The notes beneath the pieces were generated by a model. The model had not been told where the DNA came from, made no database searches, and saw only the letters and a list, made by a program, of their open reading frames with translations. From Paenibacillus sp. FSL H8-0537 (GTDB lineage Bacteria; Bacillota; Bacilli; Paenibacillales; Paenibacillaceae), in contig NZ_CP150290.1 in assembly GCF_038051995.1 (NCBI RefSeq), positions 187,001 to 251,000 of the forward strand: a DNA stretch of 64,000 bases, in the 5' to 3' direction. The first letter of the stretch is position 1, and each line of letters starts with the position of its first letter. Of the stretch, positions 27,448 to 46,918 are shown in pieces. The translations under genes and the position numbers were made by a program.

Positions 27448-27590
27448 TTCCGGTGCCGACGAGGTTAGCTGTGGGGTTCGGTTGTGAAGGTTCCCTATGA
27501 TTTCCAAGACACTTGAATCAAGCCGTCCAAGCATCGAAATCAATTCACCCAAAGTGGTTCCCCCGTATTTCTATACCTTTGCGGTATAAA
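27448..27590 (-). promoter_or_regulatory. c-di-AMP riboswitch (ydaO/yuaA class) in the NlpC/P60 leader
   Basis: On the minus strand the leader contains the conserved ydaO blocks in order: GGGGGAACCACTTTGGGTGA, then AGGGAACCTTCACAACCGA, then ACCCCACAGCTAACCTCGTCGG, ending just before the ribosome site. A small TATACC-GCAAA-GGTATA hairpin is at the 5' boundary. The class binds cyclic di-AMP and turns off wall-hydrolase and potassium or osmolyte transport genes. Limits are approximate. The off-switch hairpin is not obvious, so control could be translational. Confidence 0.9.
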
Positions 27591-27619
27591 AAATTAGGCT
27601 GGTTTAATTTTGCTCTGCG

Positions 27620-27640
27620 CTAATAATTCGGTTTTTTCAT
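27620..27640 (-). other. Candidate six-codon ORF with ideal ribosome site, 30 bases before the riboswitch
   Basis: On the minus strand AGGAGG is followed seven bases later by ATG-AAA-AAA-CCG-AAT-TAT-TAG (peptide MKKPNY). The site is stronger than that of the NlpC/P60 gene itself. It could be a leader peptide, a small toxin-like peptide or chance. The rest of 27660-27920 is AT-rich with no convincing gene. Confidence 0.35.
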
Positions 27641-27921
27641 GTGATTTCCTCCTATATGAAAGAATTTCTAATAATTCTCATGTAACCTTTTGGCTCAATT
27701 TTGCGTTAAAACAAGTTTCTTGCCTAATAAATGTTCGTTCCATCACCGTTCGCAAGCAAAAAAACATTTTGTCAGTTTATATGAGAAATAGGCAGCCAAT
27801 ATGCTAAGAATCGTACATATAGGCTAGAATTATAGCGTAAAATGAAGAATTAGAGAGTTTAGTCAGCATCAGTCTAAGGGTTGGTAAATGAATAGAAGCG
27901 TTGCCTGCAGAAGCTTTATAA

Positions 27922-27969
27922 CATAAAAACCCCGATTGCGGCCTCTTGTCCGCAATCGGGGTTTTTATG
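27922..27969. terminator. 20-bp perfect-stem bidirectional terminator
   Basis: CATAAAAACCCCGATTGCGG (27922-27941) pairs perfectly with 27950-27969 around an 8-base loop. T runs on both strands allow termination either way; on the minus strand it would end the metallopeptidase/membrane-protein operon. Confidence 0.88.
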
Positions 27970-27978
27970 AGAAGGACT

Positions 27979-28034
27979 TTAGAAAAATGAGAATACTAAA
28001 TGAGAATTAGGGAGGGACGCCCTCATTTTTCTAA
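27979..28034. repeat. 13-bp inverted repeat between terminator and membrane-protein gene
   Basis: TTAGAAAAATGAG (27979-27991) and its complement (28022-28034) flank about 30 bases that include AGGGAGGGACG. Possibly part of a 3'-UTR structure; no function recognised. Confidence 0.45.
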
Positions 28035-31289: not shown

Positions 31290-31802
31290 ATGGAACAGCA
31301 AGGACAACCGGAGAAAAAAGAAAAGAAATCACTCGCGCTTAACGTCGTGAGCAATAAACAGCATAAAGGCTTTGGTGCAGGCACCATTGATCTGAGCCAA
31401 GTATCCTGCGTTATTATTGATGCGGGCGTCGCTTATATCGACGACGGCGCAATGCATGCGAAAAGCAAAGTGGAGCGCGGCATCAAGTTTTCGCCTAATA
31501 AAGAGGATACACCGAATGGCCGCCAATGCTGGATTGTATGGGTTGCGGTAGAACGTGGAGAGAATGGCACGAACTACGCTGGCGCAACGGCTTGCGAAAT
31601 GTGGATCGACACGGAAGCGCGCCGCGGCTGGAAAATTCTCGCCGACCATGTCAACAAGCTCGATCATGCGATTAAGCGCCGCTACAACTTGGGCGAGCTG
31701 GGCGCGGAAGAAAAGGCTGCGTTCCGCAAGCTGTTAATTGAGCATAATGAAGAATGGTGGACCAATTCTTCCGATGAGCTGAAGCAGGCTTTGGAGGCGT
31801 AG
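31290..31802 (+). CDS. ywhD: YwhD family protein
   Basis: A 170-residue cytoplasmic protein of the YwhD family, conserved in Bacillales and without known function. Recognised from length and the conserved stretches NVVSNKQHKGFGAGTIDLSQ, IIDAGVAYIDDGAMHAKSKV and the tryptophan-rich middle. A Lys/Glu-rich N-terminal tail precedes the fold. The start is uncertain: ATG 31290 has GAGAGG 14 bases upstream, while GTG 31278 has it two bases upstream. In B. subtilis ywhD sits next to the metalloprotease gene ywhC; here its divergent neighbour is also a metallopeptidase, though of another family. Confidence 0.8.
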   Translation: MEQQGQPEKKEKKSLALNVVSNKQHKGFGAGTIDLSQVSCVIIDAGVAYIDDGAMHAKSKVERGIKFSPNKEDTPNGRQCWIVWVAVERGENGTNYAGATACEMWIDTEARRGWKILADHVNKLDHAIKRRYNLGELGAEEKAAFRKLLIEHNEEWWTNSSDELKQALEA

Positions 31803-31863
31803 GCTTGCGTCTGCTTAATTAGCTGAACAGTTACTGAAGTAATGTTATAAGTCATTAGGGCAG

Positions 31864-31892
31864 AGGCGTTCTTAACTTGAACGCCTTCTTTG
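31864..31892 (+). terminator. Terminator after ywhD
   Basis: AGGCGTTC (31864-31871) pairs with GAACGCCT (31879-31886), followed by TCTTTG. From about 31900 base composition becomes AT-rich, marking the edge of a likely acquired segment. Confidence 0.7.
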
Positions 31893-32106
31893 TCATGGTT
31901 GTGAGTAAATACAAAATATTATTATCGTATATTCTAATAAGGACGCTGACTTGTGTGTTCTTATTATAGATGCTTATCAAGGTTCTTATAGCACGTCTTT
32001 TAACCAATTATTGCGCAAGTTAAGGGAGTGTTCTAAAAAGCTTCTTTCTGATTGTTATTGGAGCTGTGTACCAAGTTATCAAGGAGATATAACTAAGGAA
32101 ATTATC

Positions 32107-32157
32107 TTGACTAATCTGATTTTTATGTCTATAATCAGGTGTATACACCTGATTATA
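32107..32157 (+). promoter_or_regulatory. Promoter-operator module 1 with 28-bp perfect palindrome
   Basis: TTGACT (32107-32112), 17 bases, TATAAT (32130-32135). A perfect 28-bp palindrome (half TATAATCAGGTGTA) begins at the first base of the -10 and covers the start point (32130-32157). A bound dimer would block initiation. Same design as module 2, 85 bases downstream. Confidence 0.75.
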
Positions 32158-32191
32158 TAAATGCCATGCACATTTAATTAGCTTGCGGATG

Positions 32192-32242
32192 TTGACTTAT
32201 CCCTATACTTGTGGTATCATCTAGTGTATACACTAGATGATA
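32192..32242 (+). promoter_or_regulatory. Promoter-operator module 2 with 28-bp perfect palindrome
   Basis: TTGACT (32192-32197), 17 bases, TATCAT (32215-32220). A perfect 28-bp palindrome (half TATCATCTAGTGTA) begins at the -10 (32215-32242) and shares the core GTGTATACAC with module 1. It lies 28 bases before the antitoxin gene, as expected for autoregulation by an AbiEi-type antitoxin. Confidence 0.78.
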
Positions 32243-32270
32243 TTTAATATGTAATGGAATGAGGTCTAAA

Positions 32271-33155
32271 ATGGCACGCCCTAATCGGTATCAGATTATG
32301 GATCTCTACAAGTCAGAAATTGAATTTGTACTTCAAGAATTGAAAAAAAATATTCTTAGCGTTTCTGATATGAATTCTGTTCTTTTTTCCAATCAATATA
32401 AATGGAAATTACCTGCATCAACAACAACTGAAGAATTTTTAGAGTTTCTTGTTGAGCGAAGAAAAATCTTGCGCCAAGTCGTAATTATTTTAGGTGGTAG
32501 AGAAATAATTAGATATGTATTTACTAACAGCCAACTGGATCACACCGAGTTTGCTGTTTCTTTATTTTCCAATCTGTATTTAAGCCATTATTCCGCAGTT
32601 ACTTTACATGATTTGACTAATGAAATTGTAAAATCTATTTATGTAAACCGAGAACAGTCGGAAAAAAAAGGGGCACCTTCCGCGGTGTTGCTACAGCAGA
32701 ATATAGATCAGGCATTTTTAAAGCCTATGCGACAAACAAATAATTTTTTTGATTTTGAGAGTCGCCGTATATATGTCTTGAATGGACGCTATACAAATCA
32801 GTTAGGAATTATAGAGAAAAATGGGCTGCGAGTGACAGATTTAGAGAGAACTTTGATTGACATTGCAGTACGACCGGATTATTCCGGTGGCGTTAATGAA
32901 GTATTGAACATTTATAGGAGTGCTAAGGGCTTAATTTCTGTAAACAAAATGCGGATGTACATTCAGAAATTAAAATATATTTACCCATATCATCAGGCAA
33001 TTGGATTTTATCTAGAGTTAGCAGGATACAATGATACTGCGCTTAAATTAATGTCAAATATACCAGTGGAACATGATTTTTATTTAACCTACAATATTAT
33101 TGAAAAAGCATATTCTAATCGTTGGAAGCTATACTACCCTCGAAATTTATCTTGA
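32271..33155 (+). CDS. AbiEi-like type IV antitoxin / transcriptional repressor
   Basis: About 294 residues. An N-terminal winged-helix-like region (about 10-90) is followed by an AbiEi-type domain with YLSHYSAVTLHDLTNEIV and VTDLERTLIDIAVRPDYSGG, both characteristic of the family. In AbiE systems this protein represses the operon and neutralises the AbiEii nucleotidyltransferase. ATG 32271 has GAGG six bases upstream; an in-frame ATG at 32259 overlaps that site. Unusually, the toxin homologue is not downstream but convergent. AT-rich composition unlike its neighbours points to transfer. A shared terminator separates it from the toxin gene. Confidence 0.82.
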   Translation: MARPNRYQIMDLYKSEIEFVLQELKKNILSVSDMNSVLFSNQYKWKLPASTTTEEFLEFLVERRKILRQVVIILGGREIIRYVFTNSQLDHTEFAVSLFSNLYLSHYSAVTLHDLTNEIVKSIYVNREQSEKKGAPSAVLLQQNIDQAFLKPMRQTNNFFDFESRRIYVLNGRYTNQLGIIEKNGLRVTDLERTLIDIAVRPDYSGGVNEVLNIYRSAKGLISVNKMRMYIQKLKYIYPYHQAIGFYLELAGYNDTALKLMSNIPVEHDFYLTYNIIEKAYSNRWKLYYPRNLS

Positions 33156-33161
33156 TCATTT

Positions 33162-33196
33162 TTAAGAACCGCTTGAATTGTTCAAGCGGTTCTTAA
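33162..33196. terminator. 16-bp perfect bidirectional terminator between AbiEi- and AbiEii-like genes
   Basis: TTAAGAACCGCTTGAA (33162-33177) pairs perfectly with 33181-33196 around TTG. A and T flanks on both sides suit termination of both convergent genes. Confidence 0.9.
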
Positions 33197-33197
33197 T

Positions 33198-34135
33198 TTA
33201 TGCAGCAAGTATATGCAATTTGTTTTTATACAACAGATCTACTACATAGTTGAAGTAAAAATCAAACCCTTTGAATTCTGAGCCTACAACACTATCTCTT
33301 AGTTTGTTTTCATCTTGCTTATGAAACTCAAGTGTATCTGGAATTTTGGCTATTAGTGCAATGGGGACGTTTTTAGCTTGGAAGCATGCTTTTAAATGGC
33401 GTATAGTATCTGGATGGTTAAAATCGATATGTACTAATGAACTTTCTAATACCGTGTAGATATCAAAAAAATCTCTAGGTCGTGCTTTTCCGAAATTCTC
33501 TTCTTTTCCAATACTAACATTATATTCGGCCATCTGTTGGCACACTGCTCTTATTTTTCTAAAACAATAAGGGTTGGCGTATAAATAGGGACGATATATC
33601 CGTCAAGCTCTGCCATTGTAATATCCCCTAGATATTCATGCATTCCAAAATCTATTGTTATATTTTTCTTTGTATCACTCACTGAAATTGATTTATTTGT
33701 CAACCAAATAGGCTCATTCTTATGCGCTTCAAATTTATCATTTTCAATGACCTTGAAATTGGCTTCATATCCTGCCCAGAAATAGGGGGTTTTTGGAGTT
33801 CTCGTTTTAGGCTTGGATATCATTTTAACGTCGAATACTTTATAACCATTATCAAAAAAGGTTCTGGAAAGTACAAATTCAAGGCGTTGGCGTACTTCTT
33901 CTAGGTTGGTAAGGCCAATGCTTTCAAAATCCTGAGACATAGAAAAATCTAAATCAATTGAAGCGCGGGAGTTCATGCCATATCCAATATCTAAGGCATT
34001 TCCACCCTTTAAGACTAGAGTATCAAGGAGATCATCATCTGAGAAAAGAGCGATAATAGTCAAAGTTCTAAAACGTCGTAATTCTTCCAAAGATAAGGCC
34101 ACTAGCAAATCCCTCAACTTCCTGATATTAGACAT
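33198..34135 (-). pseudogene. AbiEii-like nucleotidyltransferase toxin gene, split by a one-base frameshift
   Basis: Two minus-strand frames form one AbiEii-type protein. The first (34135 to 33551) has LKGGNALDIGYGMNSRASID-LDFSMS, the nucleotidyltransferase core with its acidic pair. It ends TPTLIVLEK-stop right after five A residues (minus strand, 33558-33554). The second (from about 33553 to 33198) continues IRAVCQQMAEY and the conserved K-ARPRDFFDIY motif. One more A in the run would restore a protein of about 311 residues. Either the gene is inactivated, the run is miscalled, or a -1 slip on AAA-TAA restores it. The start is uncertain: ATG 34135 lacks a strong ribosome site. Normally this toxin is co-operonic with AbiEi. 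Confidence 0.75.
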
Positions 34136-34306
34136 ATATCTACATTTTCTCACATATAATAGCACTTTGTGAAGACTCTTCTAGCGGTTTCTTCTAATGA
34201 AAATTACATTGTTAATTACACTAGTAGCACAACAATCTTTTTTTAATAAGGTGCAGGGGATAGCCGAGGTTCCGGCGTCTATTATAACGGGAAGGGGGAG
34301 AGCAAG

Positions 34307-34864
34307 ATTCAAGATGAAGCATGGTTAATAGCGCTCCGCGACGGCGGGCCTGCGGAATTCCAGTCATTCGTGCAGGAATATGGCGCTCATATATATAAAA
34401 CGGTTTATGCTGTGCTTCATTCGCCGCATGATGCGGAGGATGTTACCCAGGAAGTGCTGCTGCAAATTCACCGCTCTCTCCCCGAGTGCAGGCTGGAAGG
34501 CTTTAAAACCTGGGTGACCCGCATTGCTGTAAACCGTGCGATTGATTGGAAGCGGAGCAAGGCACGCAAGCCGGAAGAACTGAGCGAATATGTGGACAAT
34601 CTGGGACCGGACACCGATGGGCAAGGAACTGCGATGCCCGCGGAGCGCGCTGCGATCGAGCGCGAGGAAAAACGCTACATACGAGAACAGGTCGAGCAGC
34701 TCCCGGACAATTATCGCGAAGTCGTAAACGCCTATTATATAGAACAGAAATCATATGAGGAAATTTCGTCCTCAACCGGACTGGAGCGCAAAAGCGTAGA
34801 ATCGCGCCTGTACCGGGCAAGAAACTGGATCAAGCGGCACTGGAGAAGGGAGGACTTTGAATGA
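34307..34864 (+). CDS. ECF-type RNA polymerase sigma factor (probable AUU start)
   Basis: About 185 residues. Region 2 runs through WLIALRDGGPAEFQSFVQEY...DAEDVTQEVLLQIHRSL...FKTWVTRIAVNRAIDWKR, and region 4 through LPDNYREVVNAYYIEQKSYEEISSSTGLERKSVESRLYRAR. The first ATG/GTG in frame (GTG 34370) would delete the start of region 2. Upstream in frame the only plausible initiator is ATT at 34307, with AAGGGGGAG six bases before it, giving (M)IQDEAWLIALRDG, the usual ECF N-terminus. No ATG, GTG or TTG occurs in that frame further up. AUU starts are rare (infC, pcnB) and often regulated. Overlaps the anti-sigma gene by ATGA. Confidence 0.82.
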   Translation: MQDEAWLIALRDGGPAEFQSFVQEYGAHIYKTVYAVLHSPHDAEDVTQEVLLQIHRSLPECRLEGFKTWVTRIAVNRAIDWKRSKARKPEELSEYVDNLGPDTDGQGTAMPAERAAIEREEKRYIREQVEQLPDNYREVVNAYYIEQKSYEEISSSTGLERKSVESRLYRARNWIKRHWRREDFE

Positions 34865-45919: not shown

Positions 45920-46906
45920 GTGGTCAGTATTAAAGATATCGCTAAGAGGGCTGGTGTCTCGATATCGACGGTTTCCTACGCGCTGAATGGCAGCCCAAAG
46001 GTGACATCGGAGACATGCGCCAAAATTTTAGCTATAGCCAAAGAGTTGAACTACGTGCCGAACGCAGCTGCCCGAACGCTTAAGACGCGTGAGACTAAAA
46101 TTATTGGCGTATATTTGACCGACTTCAGTGGGGCCTTTTACGGGGATTTGCTGCAAGGGGTGAATGAAATGCTGCACCGCAAAGGCTATGATACGATCGT
46201 ATGCAGCGGCAAACGTTCGCATCGCATGCTTCCTGAGCGGATGATTGATGGGGCAATTGTGCTCGATGCCACGTTCGATAGCGATGAGCTGCTGCGCTAT
46301 GCGGCGCTGGGACATAAAGTAGTCGTGCTCGACCGCGAGCTGAACCACCCGAACATCAATCAGGTGCTGCTTGATAACAAGGCAGGAGCTACTCTTGCGA
46401 TGGAGCATTTGCTGGATCGGGGCTTTCGCAAAATCTATGCCATTATGGGTCCGGATGAGTCCTATGATGCAGGTCAGCGGCTGCAGGCGGTCAAGCAGGC
46501 GGTGGAGCGCTGCGATGACTTAACGTTTAAAGCGATTGAAGGCAGCTTCCGCAAGGAATCCGGCGAGGAAGCGGCAAAAAAAATATTAGCTGAGTATACG
46601 GAGCCAGCTGCTGTTTTTTGTATGAACGATGAGATGGCGATTGGCGTACACAACTATGTATCCCAGACAGACTATGTCGTGGGGGAGCATATTCATATTA
46701 TCGGTTTTGACAATGTGGAGCTGGCGTCGTATATGCAGCCAAAGCTGGCTACGATTGATTATTCCAAACATAAATGGGGAGCGCTTGCATCTGAGCAGCT
46801 GCTGAAAATCATAGCTGGAGAGCCGGTCGAGAACGAGCGAATTTATGTGACGCTGGTTGAAGGCGACTCTGTTGGGATAAATAAAGAGGCTAGCGCTGGG
46901 CGCTAG
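45920..46906 (+). CDS. LacI-family transcriptional regulator of the sugar locus
   Basis: A 328-residue LacI/GalR regulator. The N-terminal HTH (VSIKDIAKRAGVSISTVSYALNG) and hinge helix (NAAARTLK) are clear, followed by a periplasmic-binding-protein-like effector domain with VVLDRELNHPNINQVLLDN and FCMNDEMAIG. Start is GTG 45920 with GGAGAG upstream. It probably binds the GAAACGTTTC sites at 41551-41800 and responds to the imported oligosaccharide or its product. Its stop codon lies inside its own terminator, and its upstream region is the 98-bp repeat array. Confidence 0.9.
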   Translation: MVSIKDIAKRAGVSISTVSYALNGSPKVTSETCAKILAIAKELNYVPNAAARTLKTRETKIIGVYLTDFSGAFYGDLLQGVNEMLHRKGYDTIVCSGKRSHRMLPERMIDGAIVLDATFDSDELLRYAALGHKVVVLDRELNHPNINQVLLDNKAGATLAMEHLLDRGFRKIYAIMGPDESYDAGQRLQAVKQAVERCDDLTFKAIEGSFRKESGEEAAKKILAEYTEPAAVFCMNDEMAIGVHNYVSQTDYVVGEHIHIIGFDNVELASYMQPKLATIDYSKHKWGALASEQLLKIIAGEPVENERIYVTLVEGDSVGINKEASAGR

Positions 46907-46918
46907 CCTCTTTCCTTG
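46883..46918. terminator. Terminator overlapping the LacI gene stop
   Basis: AAAGAGGCTAGCG (46883-46895) pairs with CGCTAGCCTCTTT (46901-46913). The left arm is coding and the stop codon sits in the right arm. Both flanks permit bidirectional use with the convergent cyclophilin gene. Confidence 0.88.

Follow-up and report, generated by a model that had tools for sequence, protein, structure and literature searches.

The 64,000-nt window analysed here comprises positions 187,001-251,000 (forward strand) of contig NZ_CP150290.1 of Paenibacillus sp. FSL H8-0537 (GCF_038051995.1), and it harbors an AbiEi-like antitoxin gene and an AbiEii-like toxin gene that face each other on an AT-rich island. 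Our comparative analyses indicate, with a probability of about 0.8, that this pair belongs to the AbiE (type IV toxin-antitoxin) superfamily, within a distinct, widespread branch that has its antitoxin and toxin genes on opposite strands, the antitoxin probably repressing its own synthesis and the toxin probably being transcribed separately. This reading is built on computed properties, namely both protein families and their folds, the gene layout, the clade structure, the palindromes and the promoter-like sites.

Identity and orientation of the pair

The open reading frames (ORFs; Table 1) bore out the convergent coordinates that a preliminary description of this locus had given, and profile and fold comparisons agreed with its naming of the two proteins as AbiEi-like and AbiEii-like. 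The N-terminal piece of the toxin matched PF08843 with an E-value of 9.6e-10 and 39.2 bits (cut-off 22.5), and the C-terminal piece gave 0.01 and 16.2 bits, under the cut-off. The predicted fold of an intact toxin relative (L016) resembles that of TglT (Foldseek E 1.9e-8, TM ~0.55, ~15% identity). The profile match of the N-terminal piece and the fold of this relative place the toxin among the AbiEii (DUF1814) nucleotidyltransferases, and the antitoxin has the N-terminal winged helix and the C-terminal domain of AbiEi. A PF08843 scan found the window toxin to be the only AbiEii in this genome. NCBIfam gave no match for either protein of the pair; among solved structures, the antitoxin alignment found none at E up to 1, and the toxin query found AbiGII (9hlo) at 0.0016, with no single stretch passing alone.

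By taxonomic rank, genomes with antitoxin matches numbered 3 of 51 in the genus, 7 of 392 in the order, 6 of 398 in the class sample (one weak and dropped) and 22 of 398 in the phylum (mostly distant), and matches were also obtained in 38 plasmid records and 7 genome contigs; in the genome-contig scan, 0 of 57 pattern matches were confirmed with a single antitoxin and 7 of 230 with the antitoxin alignment. Within the family, 6 of 394 genomes gave a toxin match. De-duplication yielded 43 distinct loci (15 genomes and 28 plasmids). To this end, 28 of the 38 plasmid records were fetched, and H4, H12, H15-H17, H26, H31-H33 and H38 were excluded as likely duplicates, judged by organism and coordinates without viewing the records; G1191 and G1243 (L112 and L115) were counted as the genomes of L015 and L018 from identical gene gaps alone, and the row dropped from the class sample was L026 (in G543; E 6e-4, a partial match with AbiEii not found).

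None of the 43 loci examined is operonic. The antitoxin gene converges with AbiEii in 30 of them (all 15 genomes and 15 plasmids), diverges from AbiEii in 11 and diverges from a toxin of the HipA family in two, and the hosts belong to Bacillota (Bacilli and Negativicutes), Bacteroidota, Pseudomonadota, Planctomycetota and Campylobacterota. The 3' ends of the two genes overlap, by 4-49 bp, in 18 of the 30 convergent pairs. The convergent instead of operonic orientation noted earlier therefore holds for most of these homologues, and the outcome that had been named as damaging to it, namely that most relatives are operonic and the layout is a local rearrangement, did not materialize. An ordinary AbiE operon reversed by local inversion or by an assembly fault might be suspected, given that canonical AbiE is bicistronic in the available portions of PMC3985639, but this origin is ruled out by the absence of operonic relatives among the 43 and by two genomes of the same genus, G035 and G048, which carry the pair at the same place and in the same layout. 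The convergent layout thus recurs, with palindromic promoters of its own, and is more than a local curiosity. As a bicistronic operon with the antitoxin gene first was found in 0 of the 43 loci, we file the pair as an opposite-strand variant of the superfamily and not as canonical AbiE.

The AbiEi-like gene might also be a self-contained regulator, or a gene of a mobile element, beside which the toxin stands incidentally; its place next to HipA, not AbiEii, on two Campylobacterota plasmids could be read in this way. However, AbiEii is the neighbor in 41 of the 43 loci, across several phyla and often on plasmids, and we consider an incidental association improbable.

Same-strand relatives were found at a greater distance. 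Twenty other genomes from the phylum search contained 21 distant antitoxin cousins, mostly of ~255 aa (genome E 2e-9 to 6e-4); AbiEii follows the antitoxin gene directly, on the same strand, in 19 and was not detected in two. A PF08843 control gave 25 places in 22 of 151 genomes; nine of these loci (L055 and L057-L064) have a short upstream AbiEi-type ORF, always on the same strand, and none of the nine ORFs matched the A1 profile. In an antitoxin tree of 61 rows (the broken-gene rows S.suis2, Lysinibacillus and Brochothrix being left out), the 21 operonic and the 40 opposite-strand rows were split with a support of 100/100. Nine divergent rows formed a clade (98/93) inside a group that includes three convergent rows (100/99), and the two HipA-linked rows also formed a clade; long branches were flagged in this tree, and its root and deep order are unsure.

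The HipA-linked loci, L053 (1313-3660) and L054 (1324-3657), are located on plasmids of Sulfurimonas and Aliarcobacter and have palindromes between their two genes. Their toxins matched PF07804 (9.6e-34 and 8e-32) and, over the cut-off in both, PF13657, so that these two loci harbor the HipA kinase-like toxin of type II HipBA systems. When the antitoxin linked to HipA served as a tblastn query, 36 plasmid records matched. A swap of toxin partner by the antitoxin is possible at these loci.

Palindromes at the antitoxin promoter

Upstream of the antitoxin gene, each of two promoter-like sites with a 17-nt spacer is joined by a perfect palindrome that starts at its -10 hexamer (Table 1), which places the dyad near the expected transcription start. 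The window contains six inverted repeats with arms of at least 9 and loops of 0-4, of which only these two have a loop of 0; they are thus beyond chance. A perfect 14-bp inverted repeat with a 3-nt loop was also observed outside the island, at 46883-46913. The genome has three copies of the 10-bp core GTGTATACAC: two belong to the window palindromes, and one has no such arms. The 28-mers are predicted to fold as strong hairpins (z ~-6), as expected of any perfect palindrome.

Palindromes (arms of at least 9, loop of at most 4, mostly 0) were found between -220 and +40 of the antitoxin start in 41 of the 43 opposite-strand loci, the two misses being Phycisphaera, where 8 of 10 arm pairs are complementary, and a decayed S. 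suis locus. The same scan gave a single palindrome (arm 9, loop 4) among the 21 operonic cousins, and a scan from -250 to +60 gave none in nine other operonic AbiE loci. With an 8-bp palindromic core of alternating purines and pyrimidines as the definition of a site (42 loci, G941 excluded), the next six arm pairs were complementary in 72 of 78 antitoxin-side sites and in 20 of 23 sites upstream of divergent toxins, where the region is shared; none of the 2 sites that precede convergent toxins and none of the 36 within gene bodies had such arms. The palindrome of several Bacteroidota loci comes after a TTTG-type box, which we take to be the Bacteroidota -7 element.

The arms of these palindromes tend to change together. 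The three sister species show 0-2 differences in the 56 palindrome bases and 11-20 in the 57-base spacer, and the sole palindrome change is a matched pair affecting both arms. A comparison of 336 positions (28 site pairs, drawn from 15 locus pairs) gave 24 at which both arms had changed and 3 with a change in a single arm; 13 of the 24 double changes came from one distant pair and one lay inside the core, where symmetry is imposed. The picking of sites also favors symmetry somewhat, through the palindromic core, the choice of the best of overlapping cores and, in the 336-position comparison, the threshold of at least 6 of 10 arm pairs. In 21 convergent loci, the agreement of halves was 0.966 within a palindrome versus 0.561 between palindromes, being larger within in 19 loci and smaller in none (Wilcoxon, 1.2e-4); for 17 representatives the values were 0.962 versus 0.542, larger in 15. 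If two monomers read their half-sites independently, the two agreements would be alike. The palindromes of one promoter thus differ in arm sequence and keep their self-complementarity. In divergent loci, where the arms are shared, the agreement was 0.967 versus 0.869 and larger in 2 of 10, as predicted if the bases themselves are read.

One speculative idea, which we think rather unlikely, is that the operator is defined by self-complementarity over sequence, with the AbiEi-like protein or the promoter responding to an extruded cruciform or, on plasmids, to a single-stranded DNA hairpin. If this were true, arms outside the core would drift freely while both change together, and the opposite-strand layout would release the toxin gene from the palindrome switch. 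Template-switch repair, copying any one-arm change into the opposite arm, might also keep the palindromes perfect without any selected symmetry; the preponderance of both-arm over one-arm changes and the closer likeness of halves within than between the palindromes of one promoter are in its favor. However, the palindromes are fixed among sister species while the spacer changes and the core is widely shared, which points to selection on at least the core, and part of the symmetry signal stems from site picking and from the one distant pair. We regard such repair as possible, if doubtful, and as compatible with the self-repressing, opposite-strand pair proposed here.

Control of the two genes

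Palindromes lie over the promoter-like sites, and self-repression of the antitoxin is the natural reading, because this is the known role of AbiEi in the available parts of PMC3985639, PMC7319586 and PMC11062541. By binding the palindromes, which extend over the -10 boxes and the expected starts, the AbiEi-like protein would repress its own promoters. Among Bacillota convergent loci with upstream sequence, the antitoxin side reached a sigma-70 score of 10-12 of 12 in 12 of 18, and the toxin upstream regions scored 7-9 in all 19, with at least 10 in none; mononucleotide shuffles averaged ~8-9. The convergent toxin gene, lying outside the operator, would be transcribed separately and probably weakly, and its product would be held in check in trans by the antitoxin protein; toxicity, neutralisation and DNA binding are properties that we infer for the window pair. 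In convergent pairs, many of which have overlapping 3' ends, the toxin might in addition be dampened by transcription of the antitoxin gene, and in divergent members the palindromes of the shared intergenic region could control both genes. A role of the antitoxin operator in toxin control is unlikely where the genes converge and possible where they diverge.

The preliminary description had proposed a different route: the antitoxin would act in trans on the promoter of the convergent toxin by way of the half-site TACACTAG, whose 8 bases are identical to half of palindrome 2. The half-site is present upstream of the toxin but is not conserved, being altered in both close relatives (G035 and G048), and no antitoxin-type palindrome was found in the toxin upstream regions of 29 convergent loci (G941 left out), one of which (Phycisphaera) has an unlike GC-rich repeat. 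Control through this half-site is thus unsupported and highly improbable, and we judge the match to be due to chance. Between the genes, the perfect 16-bp inverted repeat that had been called a terminator does exist, and its stem is conserved in G035 and G048 with small differences at the ends and loop; since it is not among the two terminator-like sites of a region scan, its role as a terminator is plausible only. No known RNA family reached the gathering score within 31500-34600.

Several points weigh against a widespread branch of functional, self-repressing pairs. The 43 loci are not independent, some antitoxins being near-identical, and the search query was itself a convergent antitoxin. 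The antitoxin promoter scored no better than 9 in 6 of the 18 Bacillota loci, and the 8 promoter-like sites across the island region are not above shuffles (mean 10.3). On the two Campylobacterota plasmids, the AbiEi-like gene diverges from HipA and not from AbiEii. Finally, the window toxin is frame-broken, and broken toxin genes occur in four plasmid relatives (L041, L044, L048 and L052), three of which have a broken antitoxin too.

Probable acquisition of the island and frame break of the toxin

The contrast in base composition with the flanks, which had been taken earlier as a sign of acquisition, was confirmed: the G + C content is 0.32-0.36 (500-base windows, 31750-34249) versus ~0.47-0.58 in the 1.5 kb on each side. 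A close relative, G002, lacks the block; its ywhD stretch is 95.7% identical, and it has 121 bp in place of the island. The antitoxin search found none in the G002 genome. The ywhD gene was present in 51 of 51 genomes of the genus, from which 30 loci were fetched, and it stands close to the sigma gene in 25 of the 27 fetched loci of pair-less genomes. Further AT-rich dips occur in the window, for example at 27500-27999 (0.364). The ~93 bases between ywhD and palindrome 1 (31983-32075) had no match in G048. A recombinase-family gene was observed at most ~3 kb from the pair in L012, L013, L032, L036, L037, L039, L040 and L051, called by annotation except in L012 and L013, where the look of the translated ORF was used. 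A phage origin was considered and rejected: viral contigs gave 50 pattern matches, none of which was confirmed as a relative, and phage records gave no match.

In G035 and G048 the toxin is a single open frame. The pairwise dN/dS was 0.13-0.18 for the antitoxin, 0.07-0.12 for the N-terminal toxin piece and 0.04-0.28 for the C-terminal piece, which indicates at the sequence level that the pair was under purifying selection. The broken toxin in this genome is thus either recent decay or an assembly error. From the broken genes of the four plasmid relatives, decay seems to be common in the opposite-strand AbiE family.

Table 1. Features of the opposite-strand AbiE-like locus (window positions).
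Feature	Coordinates	Strand	Remarks
AbiEi-like antitoxin, putative autorepressor, 294 aa	32271-33155	+	
AbiEii-like toxin, N-terminal piece, frame ending at 33551	33551-34135	-	PF08843
AbiEii-like toxin, C-terminal piece, different frame	33198-33545	-	PF08843 below cut-off; 94% identity to G048 toxin
Promoter-like P1, TTGACT-17-TATAAT	32107-32135	+	11/12 matches
Palindrome 1, perfect, 28 bp, begins at P1 -10 hexamer	32130-32157		
Promoter-like P2, TTGACT-17-TATCAT	32192-32220	+	10/12 matches
Palindrome 2, perfect, 28 bp, begins at P2 -10 hexamer	32215-32242		
Inverted repeat between both stops, possible two-way terminator	33162-33196		16 bp, perfect, 3-nt loop
Half-site TACACTAG upstream of toxin, judged chance	34218-34225		altered in G035 and G048
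Island holding the pair	31809-34248		G + C content and comparison; 121 bp in its place in G002

Comparison with known systems

A branch present in several phyla, whose genes were never seen sharing a strand, raises the now testable question of how the toxin dose is matched to the antitoxin without co-transcription. Its promoter palindromes form a natural operator series with co-changed arms, by which base reading, structure reading and templated repair can be told apart, and the members linked to HipA suggest that the antitoxin is able to switch between toxin partners. An opposite-strand AbiE was not met in the available parts of the searched literature (PMC3985639, PMC7319586, PMC10435456, PMC11062541, PMC7725324, PMC8790059, PMC9642023 and PMC11514479, among others), and absence from print is not claimed.

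In the accessible text of PMC3985639, AbiE is a bicistronic operon with the regulator gene before the nucleotidyltransferase gene in each case, and its control consists of autorepression of the shared operon by the antitoxin. The Streptococcus agalactiae AbiE described there has genes that overlap by 4 nt and a single inverted-repeat pair of 23 bp with 4 mismatches and a 3-nt spacer, whereas the window pair lies on opposite strands and has, at each promoter-like site, a separate perfect palindrome with no spacer. Rv2827c-Rv2826c of Mycobacterium tuberculosis is likewise described, in the portions of PMC7319586 at hand, as an operon with two 23-bp repeat pairs, 13-bp gaps and imperfect palindromes, and menAT1 (MenT1) is termed an operon in the corresponding portions of PMC10435456, unlike the opposite-strand pair. 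The likeness to MenT3/TglT concerns the predicted fold of L016, at ~15% identity. According to the available sections of PMC11062541, AbiEi of ICESsuHN105 in Streptococcus suis binds the promoter palindromes IR1 and IR2, represses transcription and also binds oriT, whereas the core of the window palindromes is present in two copies at the pair's own promoter and in one armless copy.
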